From Sympetrum striolatum (lineage: Eukaryota > Arthropoda > Insecta > Odonata > Libellulidae), in contig OX388350.1 of the NCBI GenBank assembly GCA_947579665.1, positions 86,819,152 to 86,883,151 on the forward strand: DNA of 64,000 nt, given 5' to 3'. The notes beneath the pieces were generated by a model. That model did not search any database and had not been told where the DNA came from. It saw only the letters and a program-made list of their open reading frames with translations. Within the stretch, counting starts at the first letter, position 1; the number at the start of each line of letters is the position of its first letter. Positions 14,456-63,340 of the stretch are shown here, piece after piece. The position numbers and the translations under genes are program-made.

Positions 14456-14530
14456 TTTCTTTAAAGAAACAATTAAAAATGAAAATGTTTTATAAATTCT
14501 TATTTAAATTAACTATCCATATATATATAT

Positions 14531-39887: not shown

Positions 39888-39949
39888 GATGCTTCTCCGG
39901 ATTCATTCATGTATCTATTATATATAGATGCTTCTCCGGATTCATTCAT
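39888..39949. repeat. Array linker with two copies of the 23-bp sequence
   Basis: The 23-bp linker (GATGCTTCTCCGGATTC then ATTCAT) occurs at 39,888-39,910 and 39,927-39,949, a 39-bp tandem separated by TATCTATTATATATA. The same 39-bp arrangement recurs at 51,387-51,448. It precedes array copy R1. Confidence 0.9.
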
Positions 39950-39968
39950 ATATCATATATATATATAT

Positions 39969-41076
39969 ACAAGTAAAATGTAGCTTGCATACTACAAGCA
40001 GATCGACAACACTTATTTCATGTCCGCATCATATCGGGAAGGCCGTCAAAGGAAAAAAAAATGGATTGAAAATATTCTGATTAACCGCTGCAATTTCTTC
40101 TTCCGGCATCGAACCCGGGTCTTCCTAGTGATACTTACTATGCAGCACAATAGAAGATCACCATCTCTAACTATCTGTAAAAATTCAAGCAGAAATATTA
40201 TCTGAAACTGCATCAAACGACGTCCTACTTTTCCCTTATATTTCTTATTAGAGAAATGTTAATGTGGTCTGGCATCGAACCCAGGAATGTTACGGTCTTC
40301 TGAAAACTGTTTTCTTAAACCAGTTTTAACCACACATCTTCCAGCCAAGCACAAACTTCGTATCATTTCGATAAGTGCATCAAAAAAATAATGAAATGCA
40401 AACCGTATGTATTTTAAACGGGAGACATATTTACCGCCCGGCATCGAACCCGGGACTTTCTGGTGTAACTTCCTATGCAAGATAATGGAAGATATTATTT
40501 TTTAACTATTTGCTAAAATTCAAGCAGAAATATTGGCTGCAACTGCCTCAATCGAAGTCTTACTTTTCCCTTATATTCCTTATGAGAGAAATTTTAATGT
40601 GCCCTGGCATCGAACCCAGGAATAGTACGGTCTTATGAAAATTTTTTTCTTAAACTAATTCTTACCTTACACTTTCCGGCTAAGCACGAACTTCCTATTA
40701 TTTCGAGAAGTGCGTCAAAAAAAATAATGAAAAACAGCTCCCATGTATTTTAAAGGGCAGATCTTTGCATCGTCCTAGCATCGAACCCAAGATATTTTTT
40801 GTGAAAGTCATTGATGTTTTCGAAAGTCAAGGACCATAAATATAGGCACCTTGAGTTTTATTTCTCTACCTTTCCGGAAACTATTTTTTTTTAATTCCCG
40901 AAAATCACGGCAATGCATTTAAACGGGAAAAATCGGGACTTTGGGGCCCTCTGGGATCGAACCTATGACACTGAGGATCAAAGTTGCTTTTTTCCTGGGG
41001 GTTATACGTTATGGCCAATATGTCATAAAAACTTCAAGGCAATGACCCTTGTAGTTTAGCCTGTGAATTTGTATCC
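39969..41076 (-). mobile_element. T-arm array copy R1 (A-B-X-Y-X-F type)
   Basis: Minus-oriented copy of 1,108 bp. It starts with the hairpin terminus (ACAAGTAAAATGTAGCTTGC) and ends with GTGAATTTGTATCC. B-box-like motifs (as TCGAA) lie at 40,109, 40,275, 40,445, 40,610, 40,781 and 40,957, so the period is 165-176 bp. The second to fourth motifs are of the X/Y type. One base change breaks the terminal hairpin loop (TACTACAAGC). Noncoding. Confidence 0.9.
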
Positions 41077-41432
41077 TATCTATATAGCTATATAGCTATC
41101 TATTACGAGTAAAATGTAGCTTGCATACTGCAAGCAGATCGACAACACTAATTTCATATCGGCATCATATCGGGACGGACATCAAAAGAAAAAAAAAATT
41201 CAAAATATTCGTAGAATTCGCTGCAATTTAATCACCTGGCAGCGAACCCCGGTCTTCCTGGTGTACTTACTATGCAGCAAAATAGAAAATTACCATATCA
41301 AACTATGTGTGAAAATTCAAGCAAAACTATTAGGTGCAACTACCTCAAACGACGTCCTACTATTCACATACACTCCTTATTTGAGAAATTATAATGTGCT
41401 CTGGCATCGAGCCCAGGAACAGCATGGTCTTA

Positions 41433-41571
41433 TCTATTTTTTACTTTCTCCATATACGAAGTATAGAGAAAGTATTGTTTTCATGAAAAAATTCGACTTC
41501 GAGATTTCAACGGAAATACATGTTTTGGGGTCCCTAGAACACGTTTTGACCATTTTCGGAATGATGTCTGT

Positions 41572-41620
<49 letters not shown>

Positions 41621-42483
41621 TGTGTGATAGTGGGCGCTCTAACGTGAAAACTATTAGTCGTATCAATACCAAACTTCATATATAGTAGTGGTGTGTGTGC
41701 TGTCAGAGTTGATTAGTTTTTGGAGTAAATCGGTCAACCGGAAGTCGAGCTTTATTCATTAAAGCTCATTTCCGGTTTTCAAAATATCTCCATAAATATG
41801 ATATATACGTATATTGTATTACTTATGAAAGTTTTAGATAATGTAATATACTATAACTTTTGTATTTAATATATTTTTGTATCACCGCTTGATTAGGAGT
41901 TATTCGTGAAATACCGATAAACCGGAAGTAGCTGATTATGTACTTTGTGGGCGCTCTAACATGAAAATTATTTGTCGGATCAACACCAAATTTTATATAT
42001 AGTATTTTGGTTTGTGTGTTTAGAGTTGATTAGTTTTTGGAGTAAATCGGTTAACCGGAAGTCGAGCTTTATTCATCAAAGCTCATTTCCGGTTTTCAAA
42101 ATATCTCCATAAATATGATATTTAGGTATATAGTATTATAGATAAAAGTTTTAGAAAATGTAATTTACTATGACTTTTGTATGAAACATATTTTTGTATC
42201 ACGGATTGTGTAGGAGTTATTTGTGAAATACTGATAAACCGGAAGTTGCTGATTATGTACGTTGTGGGCGCTCTGGGCGCTGGGGCGAAAGGCCACTTCA
42301 TCGTTTTTTATCGAACATGTCCTGAAAAACATTATTTATAATGTTTGTGACGTAAAAGCTAATAATATATATAAATTAATCACTCATCTTCAAAGTTTAG
42401 ATGGAATATAGAGTTCGAAATTACTGTCGTAGATAAATATTTACATCTTATGTATGGAGAAAGTCATGTGCTGGCCACATCAG
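41433..42483. mobile_element. Inverted-repeat element inserted in copy R2
   Basis: ACTTTCTCCATA at 41,443-41,454 and its complement at 42,453-42,464 are perfect 12-bp inverted repeats. The left end also folds on itself (ACTTTCTC...GAGAAAGT, 41,443-41,474). Inside are a GT microsatellite and two head-to-tail 317-bp units (41,630-41,946 and 41,947-42,263), each starting GTGGGCGCTCTAAC and containing AACCGGAAGTCGAGC and its near-inverse TTTCCGGTT. No transposase is readable and no target duplication is certain. Resembles widespread arthropod repeats but is not assigned. Confidence 0.7.
41567..41626 (+). repeat. GT microsatellite
   Basis: About 60 bp of nearly pure (GT)n with TATG interruptions, inside the inserted element. 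Apparent histidine/threonine or cysteine/valine frames across it are artefacts. Confidence 0.95.
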
Positions 42484-43276
42484 ATTTTTTTCTTAAACAA
42501 AGTGTTAATATACATCTTCCATCTAAGCAAGAGCTCCCTTACATATCGATAAATGCATAAAAAAATTATGAAAAGATACCCCATAGTATTATATATGGGT
42601 CATATTTTTACCGCCCGGCATCGAACCCGGGTCTTTCAGGCAATACTTTCTATGCAGCACAAAAGAAAAACACCATCTCTAACCGCGTATGCAAATTCAA
42701 GCAGAAATATTGGTTACAACTGCCTCAAATGACGTCCTACTTTTCCTTTATATTCCTTATGAGAGAAACGTTATTGTGCTCTGGCTTCGAACCCAGGAAC
42801 AGTACGGTCTTATAAAAATTTTTTTCTAAAACTTATTCGTACCATACATCTTCCAGCCAAGCACGAACATCCTATCATTTCGATAAGTGCATCTAAAAAA
42901 ATAATGAAAAACGGCTCCCGTGTATTTTAAAGGGCAGATCTTTGCATCGTCCTAGCATCGAACCCAGGATAACTTTTGTAAAAGTCATTGATGTTTTCGA
43001 AAGTCCAAGACCATAAATATAGGCACCTTGAGTTTTACTTCTCTACCTATCCGGAAAGTATTTTTTTTTAATTCCCGAAAATCACGGCAATGCATTCAAA
43101 CGGGAAAAATCGGGACTTTGGGGCCCTCTGGAATCGAACCTATGACACTGAGGATCAAAGTCTCTTTTTTCCTGGGGGTTTCACGTTATGGCCAATATGT
43201 CATAAAAATTTCAGATCAATGACGCTTGTAGTTTAGGCTGTGAATTTGTATCCTATCTATCTATATAGGTATATAT

Positions 43277-43299
43277 ATGAATGAATCCGGAGAAGCATC
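43277..43299 (-). repeat. 23-bp linker between R2 and R3, inverted
   Basis: The invariant linker appears in reverse (ATGAATGAATCCGGAG...), within TATATA sequence, immediately before the hairpin terminus of R3. Confidence 0.9.
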
Positions 43300-43311
43300 T
43301 ATATATCTATT

Positions 43312-44387
43312 ACGAGTAAAATGTAGCTTGCATACTGCAAGCAGATCGACAACAATAATTTCATGTCGGCATCATATCGGGACGGCCCTCAAAAGAAAAA
43401 AAAAGGTATTGAAAATATTCTTAATATTCGCTTCACTTTAATTGTCTGGCATCGAACCCGGGTCTTCCTGGTAAGCTTACTATGTAGCACAACAGAAATT
43501 CACCATCTCTTACTATATGTGAAAATTCAAGCAGAAATATTGGCTACAACTGCCTCAAACGACGTTCTACTTTTCAGGAATGTAAATGGCGCTCTGGATT
43601 CGAACCAAGGACGATCTTGGAAATCTAAAACATGTTCATGAAAGTTATTTATGATCTCTATCTATTTGCCGAATTTCAAGTTTCTATATTATTGGGATAG
43701 GGCTCAAAATAATTATTAAAAATCGGATCAACTACTGATATAAGAGACGCCTGGTGTCGAACCCAGGAAATATATTAACGTTGTGAATGCACAGTATGAT
43801 TTTAAAGGACTTGATCTTATTTTGTGCAAAGTTTGAAATCGATATCATGCCGGGAAGTACCTAAAATTTGTCTCCGTTATCTCCATAAGAAATGCATTGA
43901 GGAATGTAAATGGCCCTCTGGGATCGAACCACGGACCATCAGCGAATACAAAAAATTTGATTATGAAATAAATTTATGATCTCCAACCTCATGCCGAATT
44001 TCAAGTATCCATGCCATCGGGAAAGGGTCCAAAAAAAATCATAAAAATCGCCACAATGCTTTTTAAACGGCCGATTTTGCCTCGACCTAGCATCGAACTT
44101 AGGACATTTTCCGTAAAACTCATTTATGATTTCGATAGATCATTACCATATATATAGGCTCCTTGAGTTTTATTTCTCTACCTATCCGGAAAGTATTTTT
44201 TTTTATTCCCGAAAATCACGGTAATGCATTTAAACGGGAAAAATCGGGACTTTGGGCCCCTCTGGAATCGAACCTATGACACTGAGGATCAAAGTCGCTT
44301 TTTTCCTGGGGGTTTCACGTTATGGCCAATACGTGGTAAAAATTTCGAGTCAATGACGCCAGTAGTTTAGCCTGTGAATTAGTATCC
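43312..44387 (-). mobile_element. T-arm array copy R3 (A-B-C-D-E-F type)
   Basis: Minus-oriented copy of 1,076 bp. Motifs (TCGAA) lie at 43,452, 43,600, 43,757, 43,924, 44,093 and 44,268. The terminal hairpin GCTTGCATACTGCAAGC is intact. The middle modules are C, D and E (the D type reads GGTGTCGAACCCAGG), so this is the second subfamily, unlike R1 and R2. Confidence 0.9.
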
Positions 44388-44464
44388 TATCTGGGTATCT
44401 GGGTATCTGGGTATCTGGGTATATCATGAATGAATCCGGAGAAGCATCTATATATCTATTATAT
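44388..44464. repeat. Linker with 8-bp microsatellite and inverted 23-bp sequence
   Basis: About four TATCTGGG units (44,389-44,422) are followed by the inverted 23-bp linker at 44,426-44,448 and a TA run. This octamer replaces the GATA repeats found at other junctions. Confidence 0.85.
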
Positions 44465-45535
44465 ACGAGTAAAATGTTGCTTGCATACTGCAAGCAGATC
44501 GACAACAACAATTTAATGTCGGCAACCTTTCGGGACGGTCTTAAAAAGAAAAAACAATTTAAAATAATCTTAAAATTTGCTGCAATTTTAATCGTCTGGC
44601 ATCGAACCCGGGTCTTCCTGGCTAACCTATTAAGCAGCACAACAGATGATCACCATCATTAACTATGTGTGAAAATTCAAGCAGAAATATTGGCTGAAAC
44701 TCTCTCAAACGACGTTCTACTTTTTACGAAAGTAAATGCCTCTCGGGACTCGAACCAAGGACGATCGTGGAAATCAAAAACATGTTTCTGAAAGGTATTT
44801 ATGATCTATATCTATATGCCGAATTTCAAGTTTCTATATAATTGGGAAAGGTTTCAAAATAATTCCTAAAAATCGGATAACTTTTGATTGTAGAGACGCC
44901 TGGTGGCGAAACCAGGAAACATTGGTAGCTGTGAATTCACAGTTTGATTAGTTATGACTTGATCTTATTTTATGCAAAGTTTCAAGTAGATATAATATCG
45001 GGAAGCACCTAAAATGTGTTTCCGTAATCTCCATAAGAAATACATTGAGGAATGTAAATGGACCTCTGGGATCGAACCAAGGACCATCAGCGAATATGTA
45101 AAATTTGATTATGAAATATATTTATGATCTCCAATTCCATGCCGAATTTCAAGTTTCCATGCCATCGGGAAGGGGTCAAAAAAATCTTAAAAATCGCCAC
45201 AATGCATTTTAAGCGGCCGATTTTTGTCTCGACCTAGCATCGAACCCAGGATATTTTCCGTAGAACTCATTTACGTTTTCGATAGATTATGACCATATAT
45301 ATAGGCTCCTTGAGTTTTGATTCTCTACCTATCCGGCAAGTATTTTTTTAAAATTCCCGAAAATCAAAGCAATGCATTTATACGGGAAAAATCGGGATTT
45401 TGAAGCCCTCTGGAATCGAACCCATGACACTGATGTTCAAAATCGCAATTTTTCTGGAGGTTACACGTGATGGCCAATACGCCCTAAAAATTTCAGCTCA
45501 ATCACTCTTGTGGTTTAGGCTGTGAGTTTGTATCC
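44465..45535 (-). mobile_element. T-arm array copy R4 (A-B-C-D-E-F type)
   Basis: Minus-oriented copy of 1,071 bp with motifs at 44,602, 44,750, 44,906 (GCGAA), 45,072, 45,240 and 45,416. It is the last of the four minus copies; the next copy is inverted relative to it. Confidence 0.9.
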
Positions 45536-45604
45536 TCTCTCTATATATATCTATTATATATAGATGCTTCTCCGGATTCATTCATATATATAGCTATATA
45601 GATA
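45536..45604. repeat. Junction where array orientation flips
   Basis: TA-rich linker with the 23-bp sequence at 45,563-45,585. On both sides lies the same element end (ATACAAATTCACAGGC and complement), so R4 and F1 meet start-to-start. This is the only orientation change within the continuous array. Confidence 0.9.
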
Positions 45605-46682
45605 GGATACAAATTCACAGGCTAAACTACAAGCGTCATTGCCTTGAAATTTTTATGACGTATTGGCCATAACGTGAAACCCTCAGGAAAAAAGCGAATT
45701 TGATCCTCAGTGTCATAGGTTCGATTCCAGAGGGCCCCAAAATCCCGATTTTTCCCGTTTAAATGCATTGCTTAGATTTTCGGGAATTTTAAAAAAATAC
45801 TTCCCGGATAGGTAGAGAATCGAAACTCTAGGATCCTTTATATATGGTCATGAATTATCGAAAACATAAATGAGTTTTACAGAAAATATCCTGGGTTCGA
45901 TGCTAGGTCGAGGAAAAAATCGGCAGTTTAAAATGTATTGTGGCGATTTTTAAGATTTTTTTTGGACCCCTTCCCGATGGCATGGAAACTTGAAATTCGG
46001 CATGGAGTTGGAGATTATAAATATATTTCATAATCAAATTTTTCGTATTCGCTGATGGTCCTTGGTTCGATCCCAGGGCGCCATTTACATTTCTCAATGC
46101 ATTTCTTACGGAGATAACGGAAACAAATGTTAGGTTCTTCCCGGCATGCTATCGACTTAAAACTCAGCGTGATAGAAGAACCAGTCTTAACAAATCAAAC
46201 TATGCATTCATAGCTATCAATGTGTCCTGGGTTCGACACCAGGTGTCTCTGCAATCAGAAGTTGATCCGATTTTTAGGAATTATTTTGAAACCTTTCCCA
46301 ATAATATAGAAACTTGAAATTTGGCATACGGATTGAGATCATTAATAACTTTCAGAAACATGTTTTTAATTACCACGATCGTCCTTGGTTCGAGTCCCGA
46401 GAGCCATTTACATTCGTGAACATTAGAGCGTCTTTTGAGGCAGCTGCGCCCAATATTTTTGCTTTAATTTTCACACATAATTAGAGATGGAGAAATTCTA
46501 TTGTGCTGCATAGTGTGTATCACCAAAAGGACCCGGGTTCGATGCCGGACGAATAACTTGCAGCGAATTTAAAGAATATTTCCAATCCCCTTTTTTTTCT
46601 TTTGAGGACCGTCCCGATATGATGCCGAGATGAAATTAGTGTTGTCGATCTGCTTGCAGTATGCAAGCTACATTTTACTCGT
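45605..46682 (+). mobile_element. T-arm array copy F1 (A-B-C-D-E-F type)
   Basis: Plus-oriented copy of 1,078 bp. TTCGA motifs lie at 45,720, 45,896, 46,066, 46,232, 46,389 and 46,538 (spacings 176, 170, 166, 157 and 149). A T-run follows the last motif near 46,590, then the terminal hairpin with stems at 46,652-46,658 and 46,662-46,668. Useful as the reference copy. Confidence 0.92.
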
Positions 46683-46740
46683 TATATATAGATGCTTCTC
46701 CGGATTCATTCATATATATAGCTGTATAGGTATATAGATA
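46683..46740. repeat. Linker F1-F2 with 23-bp sequence
   Basis: The 23-bp linker lies at 46,691-46,713 in plus orientation, followed by TATAGCTGTATAGGTATATA. Confidence 0.9.
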
Positions 46741-47847
46741 GGATACAAATTCACAGGCTAAACCACAAGCGACATTGCCTTGAAATTTTTACCACGTATT
46801 GGCCATAACGTGAAACCCCCTGGAAAAAAGCGACCTTGATCCTCAGTGTCATAGGTTCGATTCCAGAGGGCCCCAAAATCCCGATTTTTCCCGTTTAAAT
46901 GCATTGCCGTGATTTTCGGGAATTTTTAAAAAATACTCTCCGGATAGGTAGAGAAATAAAACTCAAGGGGCCTATACTTATGGTCTTGGACTTTCGAAAA
47001 CATCAATGACTTTCACAAAAAATATCCTGGGTTCGATGCTAGGACGATTCAAATATCTGCCCTTTAAAATACATGGGAGCTGTTTTTTATTATTTTTTTA
47101 ATGCACTTCTCGAAGTGATAGGAAGTTCGTGCTTAGCCGGAAAGTGTAAGGTAAGAATCGGTTTAAGAAAAAAAAATTAATAAGACCGTACTATTCCTGG
47201 GTTCGATGCCAGAGCACATTAACATTTCTCTCATAAGGAATAAAAGGGAAAAGTAAGACTTCGATTGAGGCAGTTGCAGCCAATATTTCTGCTTGAATTT
47301 TCGCACATAGTTAAAGATTATTATTTTCTATTATGTTGCATAGGAAGTTTTACCAGAAAGACCCGGGTTCGATGCCGGGCGGTAAATATGGCTCCCGTTT
47401 AAAATACATATGGTTAGTATTTCATTATTTTTTTGATGCACTCATCGAAATGATAGGAAGTTCGTGCTTGGCTAGAAGATGTATGGTCAAAACTGGTTTA
47501 AGAAAACAGTTTTCAGAAGACCGAACTATTCCTGGGTTCGATGCCAGAGCACATTAATATTTCTCTCATAAGAAATATAAGGGAAAAGTAGGACGTCGTT
47601 TGAGGCAGTTGCAGATAATATTTCTGTATGAATTTTCACAGATAGTTAGAGATGGTGAACTTATATTGTGCTGCATAGTAAGTATCACCAGGAAGACCCG
47701 GGTTCGATGCCGGACGAATAAATTGCAGCGAATAATCAGAATATTTTCAATCCATTTATTTTTCTTTTGACGGCCTTCCCGATATGATGCCGACATGAAA
47801 TTAGTGTTGTCGATCTGCTTGCAGTATGCAAGCTACATTTTACTCGT
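46741..47847 (+). mobile_element. T-arm array copy F2 (A-B-X-Y-X-F type)
   Basis: Plus-oriented copy of 1,107 bp. TTCGA motifs lie at 46,856, 47,032, 47,202, 47,368, 47,537 and 47,703. The Y motif has a perfect 5-bp arm pair (CCCGG/CCGGG) around the loop GTTCGATG. Short frames across the copy, with GIEP-like or GSMPGG-like peptides, are translations of the motif and not proteins. Confidence 0.92.
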
Positions 47848-47970
47848 ATATATATATGGATACATGAATGAATCCGGAGAAGCATCTATATATCTATTAT
47901 CTATTATATATAGATGCTTCTCCGGATTCATTCATATATATAGCTATATAGCTATATAGGTATATAGATA
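47848..47970. repeat. Linker with a perfect 23-bp-arm palindrome
   Basis: The 23-bp linker occurs inverted at 47,864-47,886 and direct at 47,913-47,935, giving a fold-back with about 30-bp arms including the TATATA flanks. It is the only junction with both orientations. Confidence 0.92.
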
Positions 47971-49073
47971 GGATACAAATTCACAGGCTAAACCACAAGC
48001 GTCATTGACTTGAAATTTTTATGACATATTGGCCATAATGTGAAACCCCCAGATAAAAAGCGACTTTGATCCTCAGTGTCATAGGTTCGACTCCAGAGGG
48101 CCCCAAAGTCCCGATTTTTCCCGTTTAAATGCATTGCCGTGATTTTTGGGAATTAAAAAAAAATACTTCCCGGATAGGTAGAGAATCAAAACTCAAGGAG
48201 CCTATATATATGATCATGGTCTATCAAAATCATTTATGACTTATACGGATAATATCCTGGGTTCGATGCTAGGACGTTGCAAAAATTGGCCGTTTAAAAT
48301 ACATTGACGTAGTTTTTCATTATTTTTTTTCATGCACTTATCGAAATGATAGGAAATTCTTGCTTTTATTGAAGATGTATATTAAGCATGGGTTTTAGAA
48401 AAAAATTTACATAAGACCGTACTGTTCCTGGGTTCGATGCCAGAGCACATTACATTTTCTCTCATAAGGAATATATGGGAAAAGTAGGACGTAGTTTGAA
48501 GCAGTTGCAGCAAATATTTCTGCCTGAATTTTCATACATAGTTAGAGATGGTGATACTCTGCTGTGCTGCATAGGAAGTATTACCAGAAAGACCCGGGTT
48601 CGATGCCAGGTGGTAATATATCTGCCATATAAAACACATTGGATAGGATTTCATTATTTCTTACATGCACTAATCGAAATACCAGGGAGTTCTTGCTTAG
48701 ATAGTAGATGTGCATTAAGACTCGGTTTAAGTCAAAAAAATAAGATAAGACCATGCTAATCCTGGGTTCGATGCCAGAGCATATTAAAATTTCTCTCATA
48801 AGGAATATATGGGAAAAGTAGGACGTCGTTTGAGGCAGTTGAAGCCAATATTTCTGCCTGAATTTTCACACATAGTAAGAGAGGGTGATCTCCTGTTGTG
48901 ATGAATAGAAAATTTTGCCGTGAAGACCCGGGTTCGATGCCAAACCATTAAAATGCAGCGAATTTTAAAAATATTTTCAATTTTTTTTTTTTTTGAGGAC
49001 CGTCCCGAAATGATGCCGATATGAAATTAGTGTTGTCGATCTGCTTGCAGTATGCAAGCTACATTTTACTCGT
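47971..49073 (+). mobile_element. T-arm array copy F3 (A-B-X-Y-X-F type)
   Basis: Plus-oriented copy of 1,103 bp with six TTCGA motifs near 48,087, 48,260, 48,433, 48,600, 48,768 and 48,930. The last F-type motif has CCCGGGTTCGATGCC. The T-run before the terminal hairpin is about 13 T. Confidence 0.9.
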
Positions 49074-49116
49074 ATATCTATTAAATATAGATGCTTCTCC
49101 GGATTCATTCAAGGAT

Positions 49117-49163
<47 letters not shown>
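49074..49163. repeat. Linker with 23-bp sequence and long GATA microsatellite
   Basis: The linker lies at 49,090-49,112 (last base changed), followed by about twelve GATA units (about 49,117-49,164) running into the next copy's GATAGGATAC start. Confidence 0.92.
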
Positions 49164-49168
<5 letters not shown>

Positions 49169-50242
49169 GATACTAATTCACAGCCTAAACTAGAAGCGTC
49201 ATCGACTTGAAATTTTTACGACGTATTGGCCATAACGTATAACCACCAGAAAAATTGCGATCTAGAACCTCAGTGTCATGGGTTCGATTCCAGAGAGCCC
49301 CAAAGTCGCGATTTTCCCCATAAGAATACATGGCGGGGATTTTCGAAAATTTTTTTGAGGCACTTCCCGGAAAAAGAGAGATTTGAAATTCAAGGAATCG
49401 CTAGATGCCGTGCATATCTAAAGGAAACCATAAAGACATCTACGAATATTATCCTTGGTTCGATGCTAGGTCGGGGCAAAAATCGGCCGTTTAAAATGCA
49501 TTGTGGCGATTTTTAAGATTTTTTTTGGGCCCTTTTCCGATGGCATAGAAACTTGAAATTCGGTATGATGTTAGATACCATAAAAATATATCATAATCGA
49601 ATTTTACATATTCGCTGATGGTCCATGGTTCGATCCCAGAGGGCCATTTGCAAGTCTCAATGCATTTCTTACGGAGATAACGGAAACAATATTTAGGTAC
49701 TTCCCGACGTGCTATCGACTTCGAACTTTGTATGATACAAGACCAAGTTCTTACAAATCAAACTGTGCATTGACAGCGTACATGATGTCCTGGGTTCGAC
49801 ACCAGGTGTCTCTGCAATCAGAACTTGATCCGATTTTTAGGAATTATTTTGATACCTTTCCCAATAATATAGAAACTTGAAATTTGGCATATAGATTGAG
49901 ATAATGAATAACTTTCAGAAAAATCTTTTAAATTTCCAAGATCGTCCTTGGTTCGAGTCCCGAGAGCCATTTACATTCGTGAACATTAGAGCGTCTTTTG
50001 AGGCAGTTGTAGCCAATATTTCTGCTTGAATTTTCACACATAGTTTTAGATGGTGATCTTCTATTGTGTTACTTAGTAGTTTTACCAGTAAGACCCGGGT
50101 TCAATGCCAGACGATGAATTTTCAGCGAATTTTAAGAAAAAATTATATCCTTTTTTTTCTTATGAGGACTGTCCCGATGTGATGCCGATATGAAATTAGT
50201 ATTGCCGATCTGCTTGCAGTATGCAAGCTGCATTTTACTCGT
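49164..50242 (+). mobile_element. T-arm array copy F4 (A-B-C-D-E-F, older A-B spacer)
   Basis: Plus-oriented copy of 1,079 bp. Its A-B spacer has ATACATGGCGGGGATTTTCG and GCCGTGCATATCTAAAGG instead of the CCCGTTTAAATGCATTGC type. The same variant is present in the old copy at 14,531, so it is probably ancestral. Six motifs lie about 150-178 bp apart. Confidence 0.9.
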
Positions 50243-50300
50243 TATATATAGATGCTTCTCCGGATTCATTCATATAGATAGATAGATAGATAGATAGATA
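50243..50300. repeat. Linker with 23-bp sequence and GATA repeat
   Basis: The linker lies at 50,251-50,273, then about six GATA units lead directly into copy F5. Confidence 0.9.
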
Positions 50301-51376
50301 GGATACTAATTCACAGCCTAAACCACAAGCGTCATTGACTTGAAATTTTTACGACGTATTGGCCCTAACGTGAAACCCCCAGAAAAAATGCGATTTTAAA
50401 CCTCAGTGTCACGGGTTCGATTCCAGAGGGCCCCAAAATCCCGATTTTTCCCGTTTAAATGCATTGCTTTGATTTTCGGGAATAAAAAAAAAATACTTCC
50501 CGGATAGGTAGAGAATCAAAACTCAAGGAGCCTATACATATGGTTATGATCTATCGAAAACATAAATGAGTTTTATGGAAAATATCCTGGGTTCGATGCT
50601 AGGTCGGGGCAAAAATCGGCCGTTTAAAATGCATTGTGGCGATTTTTAAGATTTTTTTTGGAACCCTTTTCCGAATGCTTGGAAACTTGAAATTTGGCAT
50701 GGGGTTAGAAATCATAAATATATTTCATAATCAAATTTTACGTATTCGCTGATGGTCCTTGGTTCGATCCCAGAGGGCCATTTGCACTCCACAATGCATT
50801 TCTTATGGGGATAACGGAAACACATTTTAGGTACTTCCCGGTATGATATCGACTTCAAACTTTGTATGAAATTAGATCAAGTCCTAGCAAGTCATTTTGT
50901 ATATTAACAGCTTCCAATACGTTTAGGGGTCGACACCAGGCGTCTCTAAAATCAGTCACTGATCCGATTTTTAAGAATTATTTTGAACCCATTCCCAATA
51001 ATATTAAAACTTGAATTCGGCATTTATATAGAACTTATAGATACATTAACGAAACATATTTTATGTTTCCTAGATCGTCCTTGGTTCGAATCCAGAGAGC
51101 TATTAACATTCGTGCAAAGTAGGTCTTCGTTTGAGGCAGTTGCAGCCAATATTTCTGCTTGAATTTTCACACGTATTTAGAGAAGATGATCTCCTGATGT
51201 GCTGCATAGAAATTTCACCAAAAAGACCCGGGCTCGATACCAGACGATTAAATTTCAGCGAATTTTAAGAATATTTTCAATACTTTTTTTTCCTTTCCTG
51301 GACCGTCCCGATATAATGCCGTTATGAAATTAGTGTTGTCGATCTGCTTGCAGTATGCAAGCTACATTTTACTCGT
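50301..51376 (+). mobile_element. T-arm array copy F5 (A-B-C-D-E-F type)
   Basis: Plus-oriented copy of 1,076 bp. The D motif is altered to GGGGTCGACACCAGG, losing one base of TTCGA, while the arm pair is partly kept. The other motifs are intact. Confidence 0.9.
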
Positions 51377-51471
51377 ATAATAGATAGATGCTTCTCCGGA
51401 TTCATTCATGTATCTATTATATATAGATGCTTCTCCGGATTCATTCATGTATCCATATATATATATAGCGA
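51377..51471. repeat. Linker with 39-bp tandem of the 23-bp sequence
   Basis: Copies lie at 51,387-51,409 and 51,426-51,448, the same 39-bp spacing as at 39,888-39,949. A TA run follows. Confidence 0.9.
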
Positions 51472-52546
51472 GGATACAAATTCACAGGCTAAACCACAAT
51501 CGTCATTGACCTGAAATTTTAACGACACATTGGCCATAACGTGTAACCTCCAGAAAAATTGCGATTTTGAACCTCAGTGTCATTGGTTCGATTCCAGAGG
51601 GCCCCAAAGTCCCGATTTTTTCCGTTTAAATGCATTGCCGTGATTTTCGGGAATTTTTAAAAAATACTTCCCGGATAGGTAGAGAATCAAAACTCATAGA
51701 GCCTATATATATGGTCATGATCTATCGAAAACATAAATGAGTTTTACGGAAAATATCCTGGGTTCGATGCTAGGTCGAGGAAAAAATCGGCCGTTTAAAA
51801 AGCATTGTGGCGATTTTTAAGATTTTTTTTGGACCCTTTCCCGATGGCAAGGAAACTTGAAATTCGGCATGAGGTTGGAGATTATACATATATTTCATAA
51901 TCAAATTTTACATATTCGCTGATGGTCATTGGTTCGATCCCAGAGGGCCATTTACATTCCTCAATGCATTTCTTATGGAGATAACGGAAACAAGTTTAAG
52001 GTACTTCCCGGCATGCTATAGACTTAAAACTTAGCATGATAGAAGAACCAGTCTTAACAAATCAAACTATGCATTCATAGCTATCAATGTGTCCAGGGTT
52101 CGACACCAGGTGTCTCTGCAATCAGAAGTTGATCCGATTTTTAGGAATTATTTTGAAACCTTTTCCAATAATATAGAAACTTGAAATTTGGCAAATAGAT
52201 TGAGATCAATAATAACTTTCAGAAACATTTTTTAAATTTCCAAGATCGTCCTTGGTTCGAGTCCCGAGAGCCATTTACATTCGTGAACATTAGCGCGTCT
52301 TTTGAGGCAGTTGTAGCAAATATTTCTGCTTGAATTTTCACACATAGTTAGAGATGGTGATCTTCTATTGTGTTTCATAGTAGGTTTTCCAGTAAGACCC
52401 GGGTTCGATTCCAGACGATGAAATTTCAGCGAATTTTAAGAAAAAATTAAATCCATTTTTTTCTTATGAGGACCGTCCCGATGTGATGCCGATATGAAAT
52501 TAGTATTGCCGATCTGCTTGCAGTATGCAAGCTACATTTTACTCGT
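51472..52546 (+). mobile_element. T-arm array copy F6 (A-B-C-D-E-F type)
   Basis: Plus-oriented copy of 1,075 bp with the CCCGTTTAAATGCATTGC-type A-B spacer, closely similar to F1 and F10. The junction to F7 is a short GATA repeat without the 23-bp linker. Confidence 0.9.
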
Positions 52547-52573
52547 ATACCTATATAGATAGATAGATAGATA

Positions 52574-53650
52574 GGATACTAATTCACAGCCTAAACCACC
52601 AGCGTGATTGACTTGAAATTTTTACGACGTATTGGCCATAACGTGTAACCGCCAGAAAAATTGCGATTTTGATCCTCAGGGTCATGGGTTCGATTCCAGA
52701 GGGCCCCAAAGTCGCGATTTTCTCCATAAGAATACATGGCGGGGATTTTCGAAAAATTTTTTGAGGTACTTCCCGGGGAGAGAAAGAGTTGAAACTCGAG
52801 GGATCGCTAGAAGCCGTGCGTATCCAACGAAAATCAGAAAAACATCTTGGAATATAGTCCATGGTTCGATGCTTGGTCGGGGCAAAAATCGGCCGTTTAA
52901 AATGCATTACGGCGATTTTGAAGATTTTTTTTGGATCCTTTCCCAATAACATGGATATTCGAAACTCGGCACGTGGATAGATATCATGAATATACTTCAT
53001 AATCAAATTTTACATGTTCGCTGATGGTCCTTGGTTCGATCCCAGAGGGCCATTTGCACTTCTCAATGCATTTCTTACGGAAACAACGGAAACAAAATTT
53101 AGGTACTTTCCGACATGCTATCAACTTCAAACTTTGCTTGATACAAGAGAAAGTCTTCACAAATCAAACTCTGCATTCACAGCCTGCAATACGTCCTGGG
53201 TTCGACACCAGGTGTCTCTGAAATCAGAATTTGATCCGATTTTTAGGAATTATTTTGAAACCTTTCCCACTAAAATAGAAACTTGAAATTCGGCATATAG
53301 ATAGAGATCATAAATATCTATCAGAAACATATTTTAGAATTCCGCGATCGTCCTTGGTTCGAGTCCCGAGAGGCATTAACATTCGTGAAAATTAGAACGT
53401 TTTTTGAGGCAGTTATAGCCAATATTTCTGCTTGAATTTTCACACATAGTTAGAGATGGTGATCTTCTATTTTGTTTCATACTAGGTTTACCAGCAAGAC
53501 CCGGGTTCGATGCCAGACGATGAAATTTCAGCGAATTTTAAGAAAAAATTAAATCCTTTTTTTTTTCTTTTAAAGACCGTCCCGATATGATGCCGATAAG
53601 AAATTAGTATTGCCGATCTGCTTGCAGTATGCAAGCTACATTTTACTCGT
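52574..53650 (+). mobile_element. T-arm array copy F7 (near-identical to F9)
   Basis: Plus-oriented copy of 1,077 bp with TTCGA motifs at 52,689, 52,865, 53,035, 53,201, 53,358 and 53,506. Each lies exactly 2,280 bp before the matching motif in F9. By eye only about 15 single-base differences separate the two copies. A 140-codon minus-strand frame here is shared with F9 only because the DNA is duplicated. Confidence 0.92.
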
Positions 53651-53703
53651 ATCTATAATAGATATCCGGAGAAGCGTCTATATATAATAGATATACCCAG
53701 ATA
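53651..53703. repeat. Linker with degraded inverted 23-bp sequence
   Basis: ATATCCGGAGAAGCGTCTAT near 53,661-53,681 is a shortened, mutated inverted linker; TATACCCAGATAGG follows. Confidence 0.75.
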
Positions 53704-54779
53704 GGATACAAATTCACAGGCTAAACCAAAAGCGTCATTGACTTGAAATTTTTACGACGTATTGGCCATAACGTGTAACCACCAGAAAAAATGTGATTTT
53801 GAACCTGAGTGTCATGGGTTCGATTCCAGAAGGCCCCAAAGTCGCGATTTTCCCCATATGATTACATGGCGGGGATTTTCGAAAATTTATTTGAGGCACT
53901 TCCCGGAAAAGCAGAGAGTTGAAACTCAAGGGACCGCTAGATGCCGTGCATAGCCAACGAAAATCGGAAAGACATCTTCGAATATTGTCCTTGGTTCGAT
54001 GCTAGGCCGGGGCAAAAATCTGCCGTTTAAAATGCATTGCGGCGATTTTGAAGATTTTTTTTGGATCTTTTCCCGATAACATACATACTTGAAACTCAGC
54101 ACGACGATAGATATCATGAATATATTTCATTATCAAATTTTACATATTAGCTTATGGTCCTTGGTTCGATCCCAGAGGGCCATTTGCACTTCTCAATGCA
54201 TTTCTTACGGAGATAACGGAAACAAAATTTAGGTACTTCCCTGCATGCTATTGACTTCAAACTTTGCATGATAGAAGAGCAAGTCTTTACACATCTAACT
54301 TTGCATTCACAGCTTCCACTATTTCCTGGATTCGACACCAGGTGTCTCTGCAATCAGAAGTTGATCCGATTTTTAGGAATTATTTTGAAACCTTTCCCAA
54401 TAATATAGAAACTTCAAATTTGGCATATAGATAGAGATCATAAATAACTTTCAGAAACATTTTTTAGATTTCCATGATCGTCCTTGGTTCGAATCCAGAG
54501 AGGCATTTAAATTCGTGAAAATTAGAACGTCTTTTGAGGCAGTTGTAGCCCATATTTCTGCTTGAATTTTCACAAATAGTTAGAGATGGCGATGTTCTAT
54601 TGTGCTGCATAGTAAGTTCAACAGTAAAGACCCGGGTTCGATGCCAGACGATGGAATTTCAGCGAATTTTAAGAAATATTTCAATCCATTTTTTTCTTTT
54701 GATGGCCGTCCGGATATGATGCCGACATGAAAATAGTGTTTTCGATCTGCTTGCAGTATGCAAGCAACATTTTACTCGT
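53704..54779 (+). mobile_element. T-arm array copy F8 (A-B-C-D-E-F, older A-B spacer)
   Basis: Plus-oriented copy of 1,076 bp. The D motif reads CCTGGATTCGACACCAGG. The A-B spacer is the ACATGGCGGGGATTTTCG type. It is not the source of F10, which has the other spacer type, so F7-F8 was not duplicated as a unit. Confidence 0.9.
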
Positions 54780-54841
54780 AATAGATATATAGATGCTTCT
54801 CCGGATTCATTCATGTATATACCTATATAGATAGATAGATA
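54780..54841. repeat. Linker with 23-bp sequence and GATA repeat
   Basis: The linker lies at 54,792-54,814; a short GATA run (about 54,826-54,841) leads into F9, as in F7. Confidence 0.9.
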
Positions 54842-55929
54842 GGATACTAATTCACAGCCTAAACCACCAGCGTGATTGACTTGAAATTTTTACGACGTAT
54901 TGGCCATAACGTGTAACCGCCAGAAAAATTGATCCTCTATCCTCAATTTTGATCCTCAGGGTCATGGGTTCGATTCCAGAGGGCCCCAAAGTCGCGATTT
55001 TCTCCATAAGAATACATGGCGGGGATTTTCGAAAATTTTTTTGAGGTACTTCCCGGGGAGAGAAAGAGTTGAAACTCGAGGGATCGCTAGAAGCCGTGCG
55101 TATCCAACGAAAATCAGAAAAACATCTTAGAATGTAGTCCATGGTTCGATGCTTGGTCGGGGCAAAAATCGGCCGTTTAAAATGCATTACGGCGATTTTG
55201 AAGATTTTTTTTGGATCCTTTCCCGATAACATGGATATTCGAAACTCGGCACGTATATAGATATCATGAATATACTTCATAATCAAATTTTACATGTTCG
55301 CTGATGGTCCTTGGTTCGATCCCAGAGGGCCATTTGCACTTCTCAATGCATTTCTTACGGAGACAACGGAAACAAAATTTAGGTACTTTCCGACATGCTA
55401 TCAACTTCAAACTTTGCTTGATACAAGAGTAAGTCTTTAAAAATCAAACTCTGCATTCACAGCTTGCAATACGTCCTGGGTTCGACACCAGGTGTCTCTG
55501 AAATCAGAATTTGATCCGATTTTTAGGAATTATTTTGAAACCTTTCCCACTAAAATAGAAACTTGAAATTCGGCATATAGATAGAGATCATAAATATCTA
55601 TCAGAAACATATTTTAGAATTCCACGATCGTCCTTGGTTCGAGTCCCGAGAGGCATTAACATTCGTGAAAATTAGAACGTTTTTTGAGGCAGTTATAGCC
55701 AATATTTCTGCTTGAATTTTCACACATAGTTAGAGATGGTGATCTTCTATTGTGTTTCATACTAGGTTTACCAGTAAGACCCGGGTTCGATGCCAGACGA
55801 TGAAATTTCAGCGAATTTTAAGAAAAAATTAAATCCTTTTTTTTTCTTTTAAAGACCGTCCCGATATGATGCCGATATGAAATTAGTATTGCCGATCTGC
55901 TTGCAGTATGCAAGCTACATTTTACTCGT
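54842..55929 (+). mobile_element. T-arm array copy F9 (recent duplicate of F7)
   Basis: Plus-oriented copy of 1,088 bp with motifs at 54,969, 55,145, 55,315, 55,481, 55,638 and 55,786. It differs from F7 mainly by a short local duplication (GATCCTCTATCCTCAATTTT near 54,930-54,950) and about 15 substitutions. Confidence 0.92.
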
Positions 55930-55996
55930 AATAGATATATAGATGCTTCTCCGGATTCATTCATATATCATATATTCATATATATATATATAGAGA
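55930..55996. repeat. Linker with 23-bp sequence and TA run
   Basis: The linker lies at 55,942-55,964; ATATCATATATTCATATATA follows. Confidence 0.9.
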
Positions 55997-57073
55997 GGAT
56001 ACAAAGTCACAGGCTAAACCACTAACATCAATGGCTTGAAATTTTTACGACATATTGGCCATAACGTATAACCTCCAGAAAAATTGCGATTTTGAACCTC
56101 AGTGTCATGGGTTCGATTCCAGAGGGCCCCAAAGTCCCATTTTTTCCCGTTTAAATGCATTGCTTTGATTTTCGGGAATTAAAAAAAAATACTTCCCGGA
56201 TAGGTAGAGAATTAAAACTCAAGGAGCCTATATATATGGTCATAATCTATCGAAAACATAAATGAGTTTTACGGAAAATATCCTGGATTCGATGCTAGGT
56301 CGATGCAAAAATCTGCCGTTTAAAATGCATTGTGGCGATTTTTAAGATTTTTTTTGGACCCCTTTCCAATGGCATGGAAACTTGAAATTCGGTATGAGGT
56401 TAGATACCATAAAATTATATCATAATATAATTTTACATATTCGCTGATGGTCCTTGGTTCGATCCCAGACGACATTTATATTCTTCAATGCATTTCTTAC
56501 GGAGCTAACGGAAACAAATTTTAGATACTTCCCGGCATGCTATCGACTTAAAACTTAGCGTGTTAGAAGAACCAGTCTTAACAAATCAAATTATGCATTC
56601 ATAGCTATCAATGTGTCCTGGGTTCGACACCAGGTGTCTCTGCATTCAGAAGTTGATCCGATTTTTAGGAATTATTTTGAAACCTTTCCCAATAATATAG
56701 AAACTTGAAATTTGGCATATAGATTGAGATCATTAATAAATTTCAGAAACATTTTTTTAGATTTCCAAGTTCGTCCATGGTTCGAGTCCCAAGAGCCATT
56801 TACATTCGTGAACATTAGAGCGTCTTTTGAGGCAGTTATAGCCAATATTTCTGCTTGAATTTTCACACATAGTTAGAGATGGTGATCTTCTATTGTGTTA
56901 CATAGTAAGTTCACCAGTAAGATCCGGGTTCGATGCCAGACGATGAGATTTCAGCGAATTTTAAGAAAAATTTCAATCCTTTTTTTTTTCTTTTGAGGAC
57001 ATTCCCGATATGATACCGATATGAAATTAGTATTGCCGATCTGCTTGCAGTATGCAAGCTACATTTTACTCGT
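55997..57073 (+). mobile_element. T-arm array copy F10 (A-B-C-D-E-F type)
   Basis: Plus-oriented copy of 1,077 bp. The B motif is CCTGGATTCGATGCTAGG and the C motif has lost its right arm (CCCAGACGAC). D, E and F motifs are well kept. Confidence 0.9.
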
Positions 57074-57121
57074 ATATATGAATGAATCCGGAGAAGCATC
57101 TATATATAATAGATATAGAGA
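57074..57121. repeat. Linker with inverted 23-bp sequence
   Basis: The inverted linker lies at 57,078-57,100 between TATAT and TATATATAATAGATATA. Confidence 0.9.
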
Positions 57122-58197
57122 GGATACAAATTCACAGCCTAAACCACAAGCGTCATTAACTTGAAAATTTTACGACATATTGGCCATAACGTGTAACCGC
57201 CAGAAAAATTGCGATTTTGAACTTCAGTGTCATGGGTTCGATTCCAGTGGGCCCCAAAGTCCCGATTTTTCCCGTTTAAATGCATTGGTTTGATTTTCGA
57301 GAATTTTTTAAAAATACTTGCCGGATAGGTAGGGACTTAAAACTCAAGGAGCCGATATATATGGTCATGATCTATCGAAAACATAAATGAGTTTTACTGA
57401 AAATATGCTGAGTTCGATGCTAGGTCGAGACAAAAATCGGCCGTTTAAAATGCATTGTGGCGATTTTTAAGATTTTTTTTGAACCCTTTCCCGATAGCAT
57501 GGAACCTTGAAATTCGGCATGGGTTTAGATATCATAAATATATTTAATAATCAAATTTTACACATTCGCTGATGGTCCTTGGTTCGATCCCAGAGAGCAA
57601 TTTACATTCCTCAATGCATTTCATATGGAGATATCAGAAAACGGTTTTAGGTACTTCCCGGCATGATATCGACTTCAAACTTTGTATGATATAAGATGAA
57701 GTCCTAATAAATCATACTGTCCATTCACAGCTACCATTATGTCCTGGGTTCGACACCAGGCGTCTCTACAATCAGTAAAATATCCGATATTTAAGAATTA
57801 ATTTAAACCCCTTCCCAATAATATTAAAACATGTAATTAGGCATATAGATAGAAAACATAGAGACATTTTAAAAACATGTTTTAGATTTCATAGATCGTC
57901 CTTGGTTCGAATCCAGAGAGCCATTTACATTATTGAAAAGAAGGACGTCGTTTGAGGCAGTTGGAGCCAATATTTCTGCTTGAATTTTCACACATAGTAA
58001 GAGATGGTGATTTTCTGTTGTGCTGCATAGTAGGTTCACCAGGAAGTCCTTAATTCGATGCCAGACGATTAATTTGCAGCGAATTTTAAGAATATTTTCA
58101 ATCCCTTTTTTTTTCTTTGAGGGCCGTCCCGATATGATGCCGACATGAAATTAGTGTTGTCGATCTGCTTGCAGTATGCAAGCAACATTTTACTCGT
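57122..58197 (+). mobile_element. T-arm array copy F11 (A-B-C-D-E-F type)
   Basis: Plus-oriented copy of 1,076 bp. The last motif is degraded (CCTTAATTCGATGCC, arm lost) and the B motif reads GAGTTCGATGCTAGG. The junction to F12 is a TA run without the 23-bp linker. Confidence 0.9.
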
Positions 58198-58225
58198 ACC
58201 TATATATATATAAGTTATATATAGG

Positions 58226-59303
58226 GGATCAAAATTCTAACCATGTTCCACAAGTGCCACTGCCTTGAAATTTTTAGGACACATTGGCCTTAACGTGTAA
58301 CCTCCAGGAAAAAGCCGACATTGAACCGCAGTGTCATGGGTTCGATTCCAGATGGCCCCAAATTCCCGATTTTCTCCATAAGGATACATGGCGGGGATTT
58401 TCGAAAATTTTTTAGCTACACTTCCCGGAAAAGTAGAGAGTTGAAATTCGAGGGATCGCTAGATGCCGTGCATATCTAAAGGAAACCATAAAGACATCTA
58501 CGAATATTTTCCTTGGTTCGATGCTAGGTCGGGGCAAAAATCGGCCGTTTAAAATGCATTGTGTCGTTTTTTAAGATTTTTTTTGGACCCTTTTCCGATG
58601 GCATAGAAACTTGAAATTCGGTATGAGGTTAGATACCATAAAAATATATCATAATTGAATTTTACATATGCGCTGATGGTCCTTGGTTCGATCCCAGAGG
58701 GACATTTAAATTCCTCAATGCATTTCTTACGGAGATAACGGAAACAAAATTTAGGTACTTCCTGGAATGCTATCGACTTCAAACTTTGCATGATAGAAGA
58801 GCAAGTCCATAAAAATCAAACTATGCATTCACAGCTATCAATGTGTCCTGGGTTCGACACCAGGTGTCTCTGCAATCAGAAATTGATCCGATATTTAGGA
58901 ATTATTTTGAAACCTTTCTCAATAATATAGAAATTTAAAATTCGGCATATAGATAGAGATCATTAATAACTTTCAGAAACATTTTTTAGATTTCTAAGAT
59001 CGTCCTTGGTTCGAATCCAGAGAGCCATTTACATTCGTGAAAATTGGAACGTTTTTTGAGGCAGTTGTAGCCAATATTTCTGCTTGAATTTTCACACATA
59101 GTTAGAGATGGTGATCTTCTATTGTGTTTATAGTAGGTTTACCAGTAAGACCCGGGTTCGATGCCAGTCGATGAAATTTCAGCGAATTTTAAGAAAAAAT
59201 TAAATCCTATTTTTTTTTTCTTTTGAGGACCGTCCCGATATGATGCCGATATGAAGTTAGTATTGCCGATCTGCTTGCAGTATGCAAGCTACATTTTACT
59301 CGT
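58226..59303 (+). mobile_element. T-arm array copy F12 (divergent start, older A-B spacer)
   Basis: Plus-oriented copy of 1,078 bp. The first 60 bp are unusually diverged (GGGGATCAAAATTCTAACCA instead of GGATACAAATTCACAGGC). The A-B spacer is the ATACATGGCGGGGATTTTCG type. The remaining motifs and terminal hairpin are normal. Confidence 0.88.
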
Positions 59304-59322
59304 ATAGATAGATAGATAGAGA

Positions 59323-60729
59323 GGATACAAATTCACAGGCTAAACTACAAGCGTCATTAACATGAAATTTTTACGAAGTATTGGCCATTACGTGTAACCG
59401 CCAGAAAAATTGCGAATTTGAACCTAAGTGTCATGGGTTCGATTCCAGAGGGCCCCAAAGTCCCGATTTTTCCCGTTTAAATACATTGCGTTGATTTTCG
59501 GGAATTAAAAAAATATACTTACCGGATAGGTAGAAAATCGAAACTCAGGGAGCCTTTATATATATGGTCATTATCTATCGAAAACATAAATGAGTTTTAC
59601 GGAAAATATCCTGGGTTCGATGCTAGGTCGAGGCAAAAATCGGCCGTTTAAAATGCATGGGGATAGTTTTTCATTAATTTTTTTGATGCACTTATCGGTA
59701 TGTAAGGAACTTTTCGCTCACCTAGAAGATATATATTAAGAATTTGTTTAAGAAAAAAAAAATTTCATGAGCCAGTTATATTCCTGGGTTCTATGCCAGA
59801 GCACATTAACATTTCTCTCATAAGGAATATAAGGGAAAAGTAAGTCGTCGTTTGAGGCAGTTGCAGCCAATATTTCTGCTTGAATTTTCGCATATGGTTA
59901 AAGAATGTGACCTTCTTTAGTGCTGCATAGAAAGTATTACCAGAAAGACCCGGGTTCTATGCCGGGCGGCAAATATGTCTCCCGTTTAAAATACATTGGG
60001 TTAGTATTTCATTATTTTTTGATGCACTTATCAAAATGATAGGAAGTTCGTGCTCGGCTGGAAGATGTACAAAAAAAAAATTGGTTTTAGAAAAAAAATT
60101 TCATAAGCCCGTACAATTCCTTGGTTTGATGCCAGAGCACATTAAATTTTCTCTCATAAGGAATACATGGGAAAAGTAGGACGTCGTTTGAGGCAGTTGC
60201 ACCCAATATTTCTGCTTGAAACTTCACATATAGTTAGAGGTGTTGATCTTCTGTTGTGCTGCATATAAAATATTACCAGAAAGACCCGGGTTCGAAGCCA
60301 GGCGGTAAATATATCCCCCATTTAAAATGCATTGTAGAGGTTTCATTATTTATTTTGATGCACTTATCGAAATGATAGGAGGTTCATGCTTAGATAGAAG
60401 ATGTTTATTTAGACTTGGTTTAAGAAAAAAAAATAGATAAGACCATGCTGTTCCTGGGTTCGTTGCCCGAGCACATTACAATTCCTCACATAAGGTATGT
60501 GTATGAAAAGTAGGACGTCATTTGAGGCAGTTGCAGTCAATATTTCTGCTTGAATTTTCACACATAGTTAGAGATGGTGATCTTCTGTAGTACTGCATAG
60601 TAAGTTCACCAGGAAGGCTTGGGTTCGATGCCAGACGATTGAATTGCAGTGAATTTTAAGAATATTTTCAATGCTTTTTTTTTCTTTTGAGAACTGTCCC
60701 GATATGATGCCGATATGAAGGTGGTGTTG
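59323..60729 (+). mobile_element. T-arm array copy F13, expanded to eight modules and truncated
   Basis: This copy has eight motifs at 59,438, 59,616, 59,789, 59,955, 60,125, 60,291, 60,459 and 60,624 (spacings 165-178). The order is A-B-X-Y-X-Y-X-F, one X-Y dimer more than F2. Several motifs are mutated (TTCTA twice, TTTGA, TTCGT). Similarity stops near 60,729, before the terminal hairpin, where the second repeat family begins. Confidence 0.9.
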
Positions 60730-61165
60730 AAATGAATTTGGTGTTCCCTTGACGATATAAATTTTTAAAAATTCGAATTTTGTTGACGAGTATGTAGCAA
60801 CCAAGTTTTATTTACATCAACGTAATTGTTTACCGTCTTTTTCGTATAATGAAATGAGTTTTATATCATTGGTTTACTGAAAATGGATTTCTATCGATCA
60901 ATTCAACTGATTGCGTATAAATATCCTGGTACGTTGCGTAAGTTTTGAAGTATATTTTTCTGAATTAAGTATTAAATCTAATCTATTTGCATTGATGTAT
61001 ATATAGCAATTTATGGAAATGGAGTTTGCGAAGGACGAAAAGAATTCCCAGATTCGTAGTTTGTTATCCTTGATGAGTTGAACGGCAAGTTGTTAAGTTG
61101 TAGCAAATCTCTAACATCATATACCAGACCAAAAAGGTAAGGCAATTTTATTTTGTTAAATGCAG
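60730..61165 (+). repeat. Second repeat family, copy 2
   Basis: It shares CCCTTGACGATA, GTAGCAACCAAGTTTTATTT, CATCAACGTAATTGTTTACC and a GTAAGT site (60,938-60,943) with copies at 24.8 and 61.9 kb. A second splice-donor-like site follows AAAAAG at 61,137 (GTAAGG). Between them CGGCAAGTTG matches GCGGCGAGTGG in copy 3. No intact protein is readable. Confidence 0.5.
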
Positions 61166-62939: not shown

Positions 62940-63340
62940 AAAACAATGAAACATACCTTCTGGTTCCATGATACACCATTTCTCCACCAGGTCCACGGTT
63001 CGAACCCAGACGGGTCAAAACGTTTCCATAAGAAATACACGTAGAGGTCAGTTTTCTGTAGCAGGATTCATTTCTTCTTCAAAATTAAATTAGAAATAAT
63101 GGTCCTAGAAAGCCGAATCTAGCACTAAAAGAAGGAGAATAGAATAAAAATCCTTTTTTGGTCGTGGAATATGGTTTTCGATTCGAAATTGTGCACAATT
63201 AGATAAAGTACGTCAACATTTTATCGAAATTTTGAGGTCGTAAGCAACCCATCCCCCTGACGATCAAGGCGATTGTTGATTTCAAGCTCATGCGTAATTC
63301 CATAAGAAGACACGGAAAATGAATGCCCAGATACAATTAA
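62940..63340 (+). repeat. Second repeat family, copy 4 (5' part)
   Basis: It carries a B-box-like GGTTCGAACCC near 62,997, CATAAGAAATACACG, CAAAATTAAATTAGAAATAA, and GACGATCAAGGCGATTGTTG, in the same order as copies 1 and 3. It is cut off by the array-type element starting at 63,404. Confidence 0.55.

Follow-up and report, generated by a model that had tools for sequence, protein, structure and literature searches.

A 64-kb stretch of the Sympetrum striolatum genome (contig OX388350.1, positions 86,819,152 to 86,883,151 of the forward strand; hereafter the window, in which position 1 is the first base) contains, from 39970 to about 60729, a tandem cluster of 17 units of a mobile-like repeat, each unit built of short modules with one B box apiece, the box pattern that TFIIIC recognizes in RNA polymerase III (Pol III) promoters. 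Because the boxes are accompanied by no clear A box and no tRNA context, we consider them solo B boxes, i.e., predicted extra-TFIIIC (ETC) sites, and we tentatively favor the view that the array is a cluster of such candidate sites held under constraint. Binding of TFIIIC to the boxes is predicted from their letters. The window as a whole has a GC content of 35.8% and a CpG observed/expected ratio of 1.04.

A weight matrix refined from eight seeds of the window identified 104 boxes in the array (80 on the forward and 24 on the reverse strand, equal to 16 x 6 + 8) and none in 10 dinucleotide shuffles of it. Together with the conserved start and end blocks of the units, this count bears out the original prediction of 17 units with six modules each (once eight) and more than 100 B-box-like motifs; the predicted module spacing of 150–178 bp likewise agrees with measured box-to-box distances of 147–178 bp within units (the pair across an insertion excluded). 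The statement that nearly every module has the motif holds for the core (GGTTCGANNC, 89 of 104 boxes) and was generous for the full 11-mer (GGTTCGANNCC, exact in 75 of 104). GTTCRANNC, the B-box core as given in the relevant passages of PMC5391098 and the motif expected of ETC sites, was intact in 92 of the 104 boxes; counted on both strands, it occurred 92 times in the array, where shuffles gave 2.8 on average, and the remaining 43 kb of the window had 16. The modules are ~166 bp long, diverged, and alignable over their full length. The units with six boxes fall into types I and II, and in six-module type II units the boxes occupy nearly fixed places, at about 113, 289, 459, 625, 782, and 930.

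With the box positions numbered as in tRNA (G52–C61), T55 and C61 were invariant (104/104) and C56 nearly so (103/104), followed by G52, T54, G57, and A58 (each 101/104) and G53 (100/104). Information content per position was 1.81 bits for G52, 1.73 for G53, 1.78 for T54, 2.00 for T55, 1.92 for C56, 1.78 for G57, 1.78 for A58, and 2.00 for C61, vs. 0.78 for N59 and 0.22 for N60. In Pol III promoters, the tRNA/TFIIIC B box has this same distribution of fixed and free positions. Folding six of the boxes as DNA gave nothing remarkable (z from −1.57 to +0.96).

The module alignment favors the original claim that the motif stays while the spacers diverge. Between module types the box was the most conserved part, forming the best 12-base window at 1.55 bits per position vs. 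a mean of 0.79 (103 of 104 modules, without the interrupted one; the cut points, 12 bases ahead of each box, favor alignment there), and within orthologous modules its divergence was roughly a quarter of the unit average. Specifically, the eight core positions differed between units at a pairwise rate of 0.041, compared with 0.154 for the whole unit (11 of the 12 six-module type II units, since of two that are 99% identical only one was kept); a core difference as low arose in 1 of 20000 random placements and in 3 of 1073 circular shifts, including the true one. With a tree computed from the columns outside the boxes (1062 gap-free columns, each of the 12 six-module type II units included), we inferred 0.229 changes per site in the core and 0.835 outside the boxes; of 20000 base-matched draws 0 were as low, and of 20000 block draws 4.

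Constraint and recent homogenization had both been proposed for the shared motif. The slower core supports the former, and homogenization between modules is disfavored: the free dinucleotide N59/N60 reads TT, TG, TC, and CA in modules 1–4, respectively, each in 12 of 12 six-module type II units, GT (7) or AT (5) in module 5, and TG in module 6 (10 of 12). Since copying between modules would mix these letters, and they remain module-specific, the shared core does not stem from recent copying of that kind. Two relatives lie outside the array. An old, diverged, solitary one on the reverse strand (14515–15290; 71.8% identity over 404 bases) has a TA tail, an end block resembling that of the units, and three boxes that pass the matrix; judged by eye, its four box regions keep 29 of 32 core positions at a background of ~72% (binomial P 0.01), with modules 3 and 5/6 intact, two changes in module 2, and one in module 4. 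A partial copy with three boxes, cut by the window end (63405–64000, reverse strand; 90.4% identity over 606 bases to unit 12), shows one change by eye, at G52 of its module-5 box.

Several observations weigh against the ETC interpretation. The copies of one array are kin, so that the tests above are not independent and their figures overstate certainty. Slow evolution also extends past the core, with pairwise differences of 0.074 at the free positions and 0.075 over an 18-base stretch, vs. 0.154 overall, and the hairpin at the unit end is slower still, at 0.11 changes per site. Two letters outside the B box, C at −4 (101/104) and G at +12 (102/104), equal the B-box letters in invariance and could mark another, longer site. 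At the GGTTCGANNC level 15 of the 104 cores are broken; breakage is more frequent in unit 17, which lacks the end hairpin (4 of 8 cores vs. 11 of 96 elsewhere; Fisher P 0.014, post hoc). Within the 12 six-module type II units, the 11 core changes are confined to boxes 2, 4, and 6 (3, 4, and 4), with 0, 0, and 0 in boxes 1, 3, and 5. This split, noticed post hoc, hints at a dimer of 335 bp in which one box is the primary site. The readable boxes of the old relative tend the same way, its module-1 box being unrecognizable and its module-2 box below the matrix threshold, but the single change in the partial copy is in a module-5 box. Finally, ETC sites in Caenorhabditis elegans have both A and B boxes, and the array has no clear A box.

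The main rival explanation, unlikely in our view, is that the motif is bound by another protein, such as a transposase, Rep, or recombinase of the element or a centromere- or satellite-binding protein, that reads the longer TCCNGGTTCGANNCCAG, so that the similarity to a B box is only a likeness. The fixed C and G outside the box would then extend it to the near-palindrome TCCTGG..CCAG, and many mobile elements have repeated sub-terminal transposase sites. Against such a protein, the arrangement of free and fixed positions, including the two free positions before C61, equals that of the B box. A CENP-B satellite was rejected on its own account: TTCGNNNNANNCGGG, the core of the CENP-B box, had no match in the array at up to one mismatch and 63 at up to two, and its A was found in 0 of 104 boxes.

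Unit limits were set by two conserved blocks: the start block (GATACAAATTCACAG...) and the end block, whose palindrome GCTTGCAGTATGCAAGC has a 7-bp stem and a 3-nt loop and lies 13 nt from the edge between block and linker (for example in the forward-strand end block at 59268–59302). By BLAST, the 71-base end block is present in 16 of 17 units, in full or short by 1–3 bases, and by its first 24 bases only in unit 17; a 35-bp end block searched with up to 6 errors was found in 12 of 17 units, exact in 11 and with 2 mismatches at 39970–40004. Fifteen units measure 1069–1106 bp, one with eight modules 1406 bp, and one with an insertion 2147 bp. The originally predicted limits, 39969 and 60729, were right within tens of bases, and the family extends to the two relatives described above.

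The units form two orientation blocks, four leftward and thirteen rightward, head to head across an AT-rich linker at 45535–45605 (no strand assigned) that contains a 34-bp block; two or fewer orientation runs among 17 randomly oriented units have a probability of 0.00026. On the reverse strand (39970–45534) are units 1 (39970–41075; six modules, delimited by start and end blocks plus six boxes) and 2 (41106–43252; six boxes, split by the insertion), both of type I, and the six-module type II units 3 (43313–44386) and 4 (44466–45534). The forward block (45606 to about 60729) comprises unit 5 (45606–46681, type II), the type I units 6 (46742–47846) and 7 (47972–49072), and the type II units 8 (49169–50241), 9 (50302–51375), 10 (51473–52545), 11 (52575–53649), 12 (53705–54778), 13 (54843–55928), 14 (55998–57072), 15 (57123–58196), and 16 (58227–59302; start inferred, the BLAST match to the start block beginning at 58248), followed by the eight-module unit 17 (59324–60729), whose end block is matched to 60719 only and whose end is taken from the original prediction. 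The units most alike form groups whose members alternate with those of other groups.

The 16 junctions between units are 21–125 bp long and TA/GATA-rich. Twelve of them (one partially) contain the 34-bp block, which includes ATAGATGCTTCTCCGGATTCATTCAT and, as at 47847–47971 and 39873–39969, lies in either orientation, once in both as a palindrome; it looks as if it flips inside TA-rich flanks. The insertion in unit 2 (about 41420–42487, ~1.07 kb) has ends like ACTTTCTCCATA.../...TATGGAGAAAGT, contains a TG run and a tandem repeat of 317 bp, and is probably a DNA transposon younger than the unit, its ends being approximate.

Seventeen units make a long array as in satellites, head to tail within each block, and dispersed copies exist as well: given the diverged relative at 14515–15290 and the partial copy at 63405–64000, we regard the family as interspersed and tandem here. 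An array of an interspersed, probably mobile element describes it better than a plain satellite does. The element itself is probably a non-coding, non-autonomous mobile repeat of ~1.08 kb. Matches elsewhere were absent from viral contigs (exact 22- and 24-base patterns and a chance open reading frame [ORF] of the array) and from a prokaryote contig collection.

In layout the element resembles the HINE/Helentron-associated elements, a group that also includes the pearl elements. Like DINE-1 and the oyster Cg_HINE with its Cg170 repeats, it is non-coding and combines internal tandem repeats (the ~166-bp modules) with a microsatellite (the GATA/TA linkers) and a short palindrome near its 3′ end, all of them features of HINEs in the portions of PMC7492417 and PMC4067079 on which we draw, where tandem arrays of Helitrons are also reported. 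A true HINE/Helentron-derived, DINE-1-like element that moved by rolling circle and formed concatemers, its B boxes being incidental, would account for these features and for the position of the palindrome, and we consider it rather unlikely. In composite strings of the left and right ends, the window holding no complete solitary copy, no subterminal inverted repeats appeared at the expected places: the two strings have nothing in common beyond AT-microsatellite matches and, away from those places, an AT-rich match of 10–11 bp with one mismatch; no Rep/helicase was found among the ten window ORFs scanned with Pfam; and slow evolution of the box would be left unexplained. The array further differs from HINEs in having one B-box core per module, the HINE descriptions in those portions of the sources mentioning no Pol III B boxes. 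Because subterminal inverted repeats were not found and the true left end is not fixed, we do not file the element as a HINE.

Each module might alternatively be a small Pol III gene, the array being a Pol III-transcribed satellite or tRNA-derived short interspersed element (SINE). We consider this improbable, and the Pol III-transcribed satellite of the original prediction, taken as tRNA-like, was not supported. Its attractions are the B box in each module and, as in tRNA-derived SINEs, a microsatellite beside a conserved 3′ block. A unit of ~1.08 kb with six boxes is unlike such SINEs, however, and neither the tRNA-like head (ARAGORN, Rfam) nor a clear A-box excess (104 boxes) was found. We searched 20–95 bp upstream of the 104 boxes for four A-box consensus forms and compared them with shuffles: two forms matched slightly better (mean mismatches 2.01 vs. 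2.12 and 3.86 vs. 3.90) and the other two slightly worse (2.72 vs. 2.62 and 2.37 vs. 2.32). Matches with two mismatches are repeated from unit to unit, 54 bp before box 1 (12 of 17 units) and 57–58 bp before box 6 (13 units), which is what homologous modules would show for any chance match. ARAGORN returned 0 tRNA genes, Rfam 0 at gathering threshold, and a search of one unit with E as high as 10 gave no tRNA; in lacking tRNA genes and a clear A box, the array is like ETC sites of the yeast and human type.

Runs of T6+ within 100 nt after the box are in moderate excess (46 of 103 vs. 31.2 expected), which would suit Pol III transcription, but T4 (93 of 103 vs. 92.6) and T5 (68 of 103 vs. 65.8) runs are at shuffle level, and A4 runs, which are no terminator, show a larger excess than these (82 of 103 vs. 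62.4). Each unit moreover contains 13–19 T4+ runs (29 in the unit holding the insertion), which would stop Pol III. T-arm pairing in the tRNA register was not above shuffles (3.48 vs. 3.52 of 5). Sliding the register by one base gave 3.52 vs. 3.46 ± 0.02, and the RNA T-arm reading of that register was dropped, as other non-tRNA registers were likewise above shuffles (53:60, 3.57 vs. 3.49; 51:61, 2.53 vs. 2.49). Apart from the moderate T6+ excess and the slight advantage of two A-box forms, the ARAGORN, Rfam, A-box, terminator, and T-arm pairing tests lend tRNA genes no support; the array probably contains none, and a classical SINE is unlikely.

The weakest explanation, a plain satellite in which unequal exchange and gene conversion keep the modules alike around a box without function, is very improbable: units 11 and 13, which share 99% identity over their full length, start and end blocks included, with a unit at 89% between them, indicate that exchange or copying occurs, and the surroundings of the box are slow as well, but conversion between modules would carry along the free positions, which stay module-specific, and conversion between units would slow whole tracts rather than chiefly the core positions.

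A second, distant dispersed repeat with B-box-like motifs is present at 24314, 24445–24690, and 62996–63250 (66.9% identity over 260 bp); it has no BLAST match to the array units and one 39-bp match to the right flank of the array (60794–60832). Antisense ORFs on the reverse strand (52584–53009 and 54852–55289) run through boxes and give the peptide ‘SGIEPMTLR,’ of the spurious kind that antisense tRNA T-arms yield; we judged them chance ORFs, and a database search with that at 54852–55289 returned no protein relatives. Elsewhere in the window, a mariner-type transposase in two overlapping frames (9032–10328; Transposase_1, E 9.5e-23) lies between inverted repeats of about 152 bp with 96% identity, which is long for mariner; among the matches listed for its protein (120 of 958), the named species are arthropods. 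The window also has long TG and GATA runs, which like the transposase suggest animal DNA, and, at 36691–37046, a C-rich 104-bp/13-bp tandem repeat with strong GC skew.

If the boxes are ETC sites, the motif would have been kept because TFIIIC binds them, and as solo B boxes they would do so without assembling Pol III. Constraint may have acted mainly during the spread of the element lineages, each copy carrying a phased row of putative TFIIIC sites; the array would then have brought some 90 intact sites together within 21 kb, where they could serve as a chromatin boundary or a tether to the nuclear periphery. It is possible, if on the unlikely side, that six phased solo B boxes are a functional trait of the element family, recruiting TFIIIC without Pol III and, by this and by accumulating in tandem, setting a boundary or keeping the surroundings open. 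In that case the primary sites would be the odd-numbered boxes, whose core did not change in any of the 12 six-module type II units.

Known systems offer partial parallels. According to the cited passages of PMC5391098, solo B boxes are bound by TFIIIC but not by TFIIIB and Pol III, and the same passages describe 22 B boxes per ~44-kb arm of the extrachromosomal ribosomal DNA of Dictyostelium, several of which have A boxes and are integration targets like Pol III genes. As there, GTTCRANNC is over-represented in the array without other tRNA context and was spread partly by duplication of larger segments; the array differs in its density (92 in 21 kb) and in having no clear A-box excess. The C. 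elegans ETC sites, for which TFIIIC binding was measured, form dense clusters (median interval 1207 bp), and 214 of 504 overlap CeRep3 repeats, as reported in the portions of PMC6950938 considered here. Common to these clusters and the array is a B-box motif in a repeat family, dense in cis and not tied to Pol III; the array differs in its ~166-bp spacing, in showing no clear A box, and in that its TFIIIC binding is predicted. Among the titles and abstract openings listed from open-access literature, we did not meet an array of a mobile repeat with a B box in each module.

ETC sites are known from yeasts, worms, and mammals, and their origin and spread are, to our knowledge, poorly understood. 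If TFIIIC binds the boxes, the array, with the core intact in about 90 of them within 21 kb, would be a pronounced case of clustered solo B boxes, and ETC clusters would have a source in a transposable repeat that brings them ready-made and multiplies. If it does not, the array still shows a HINE-like element with a site that is clearly conserved and that probably binds a protein.

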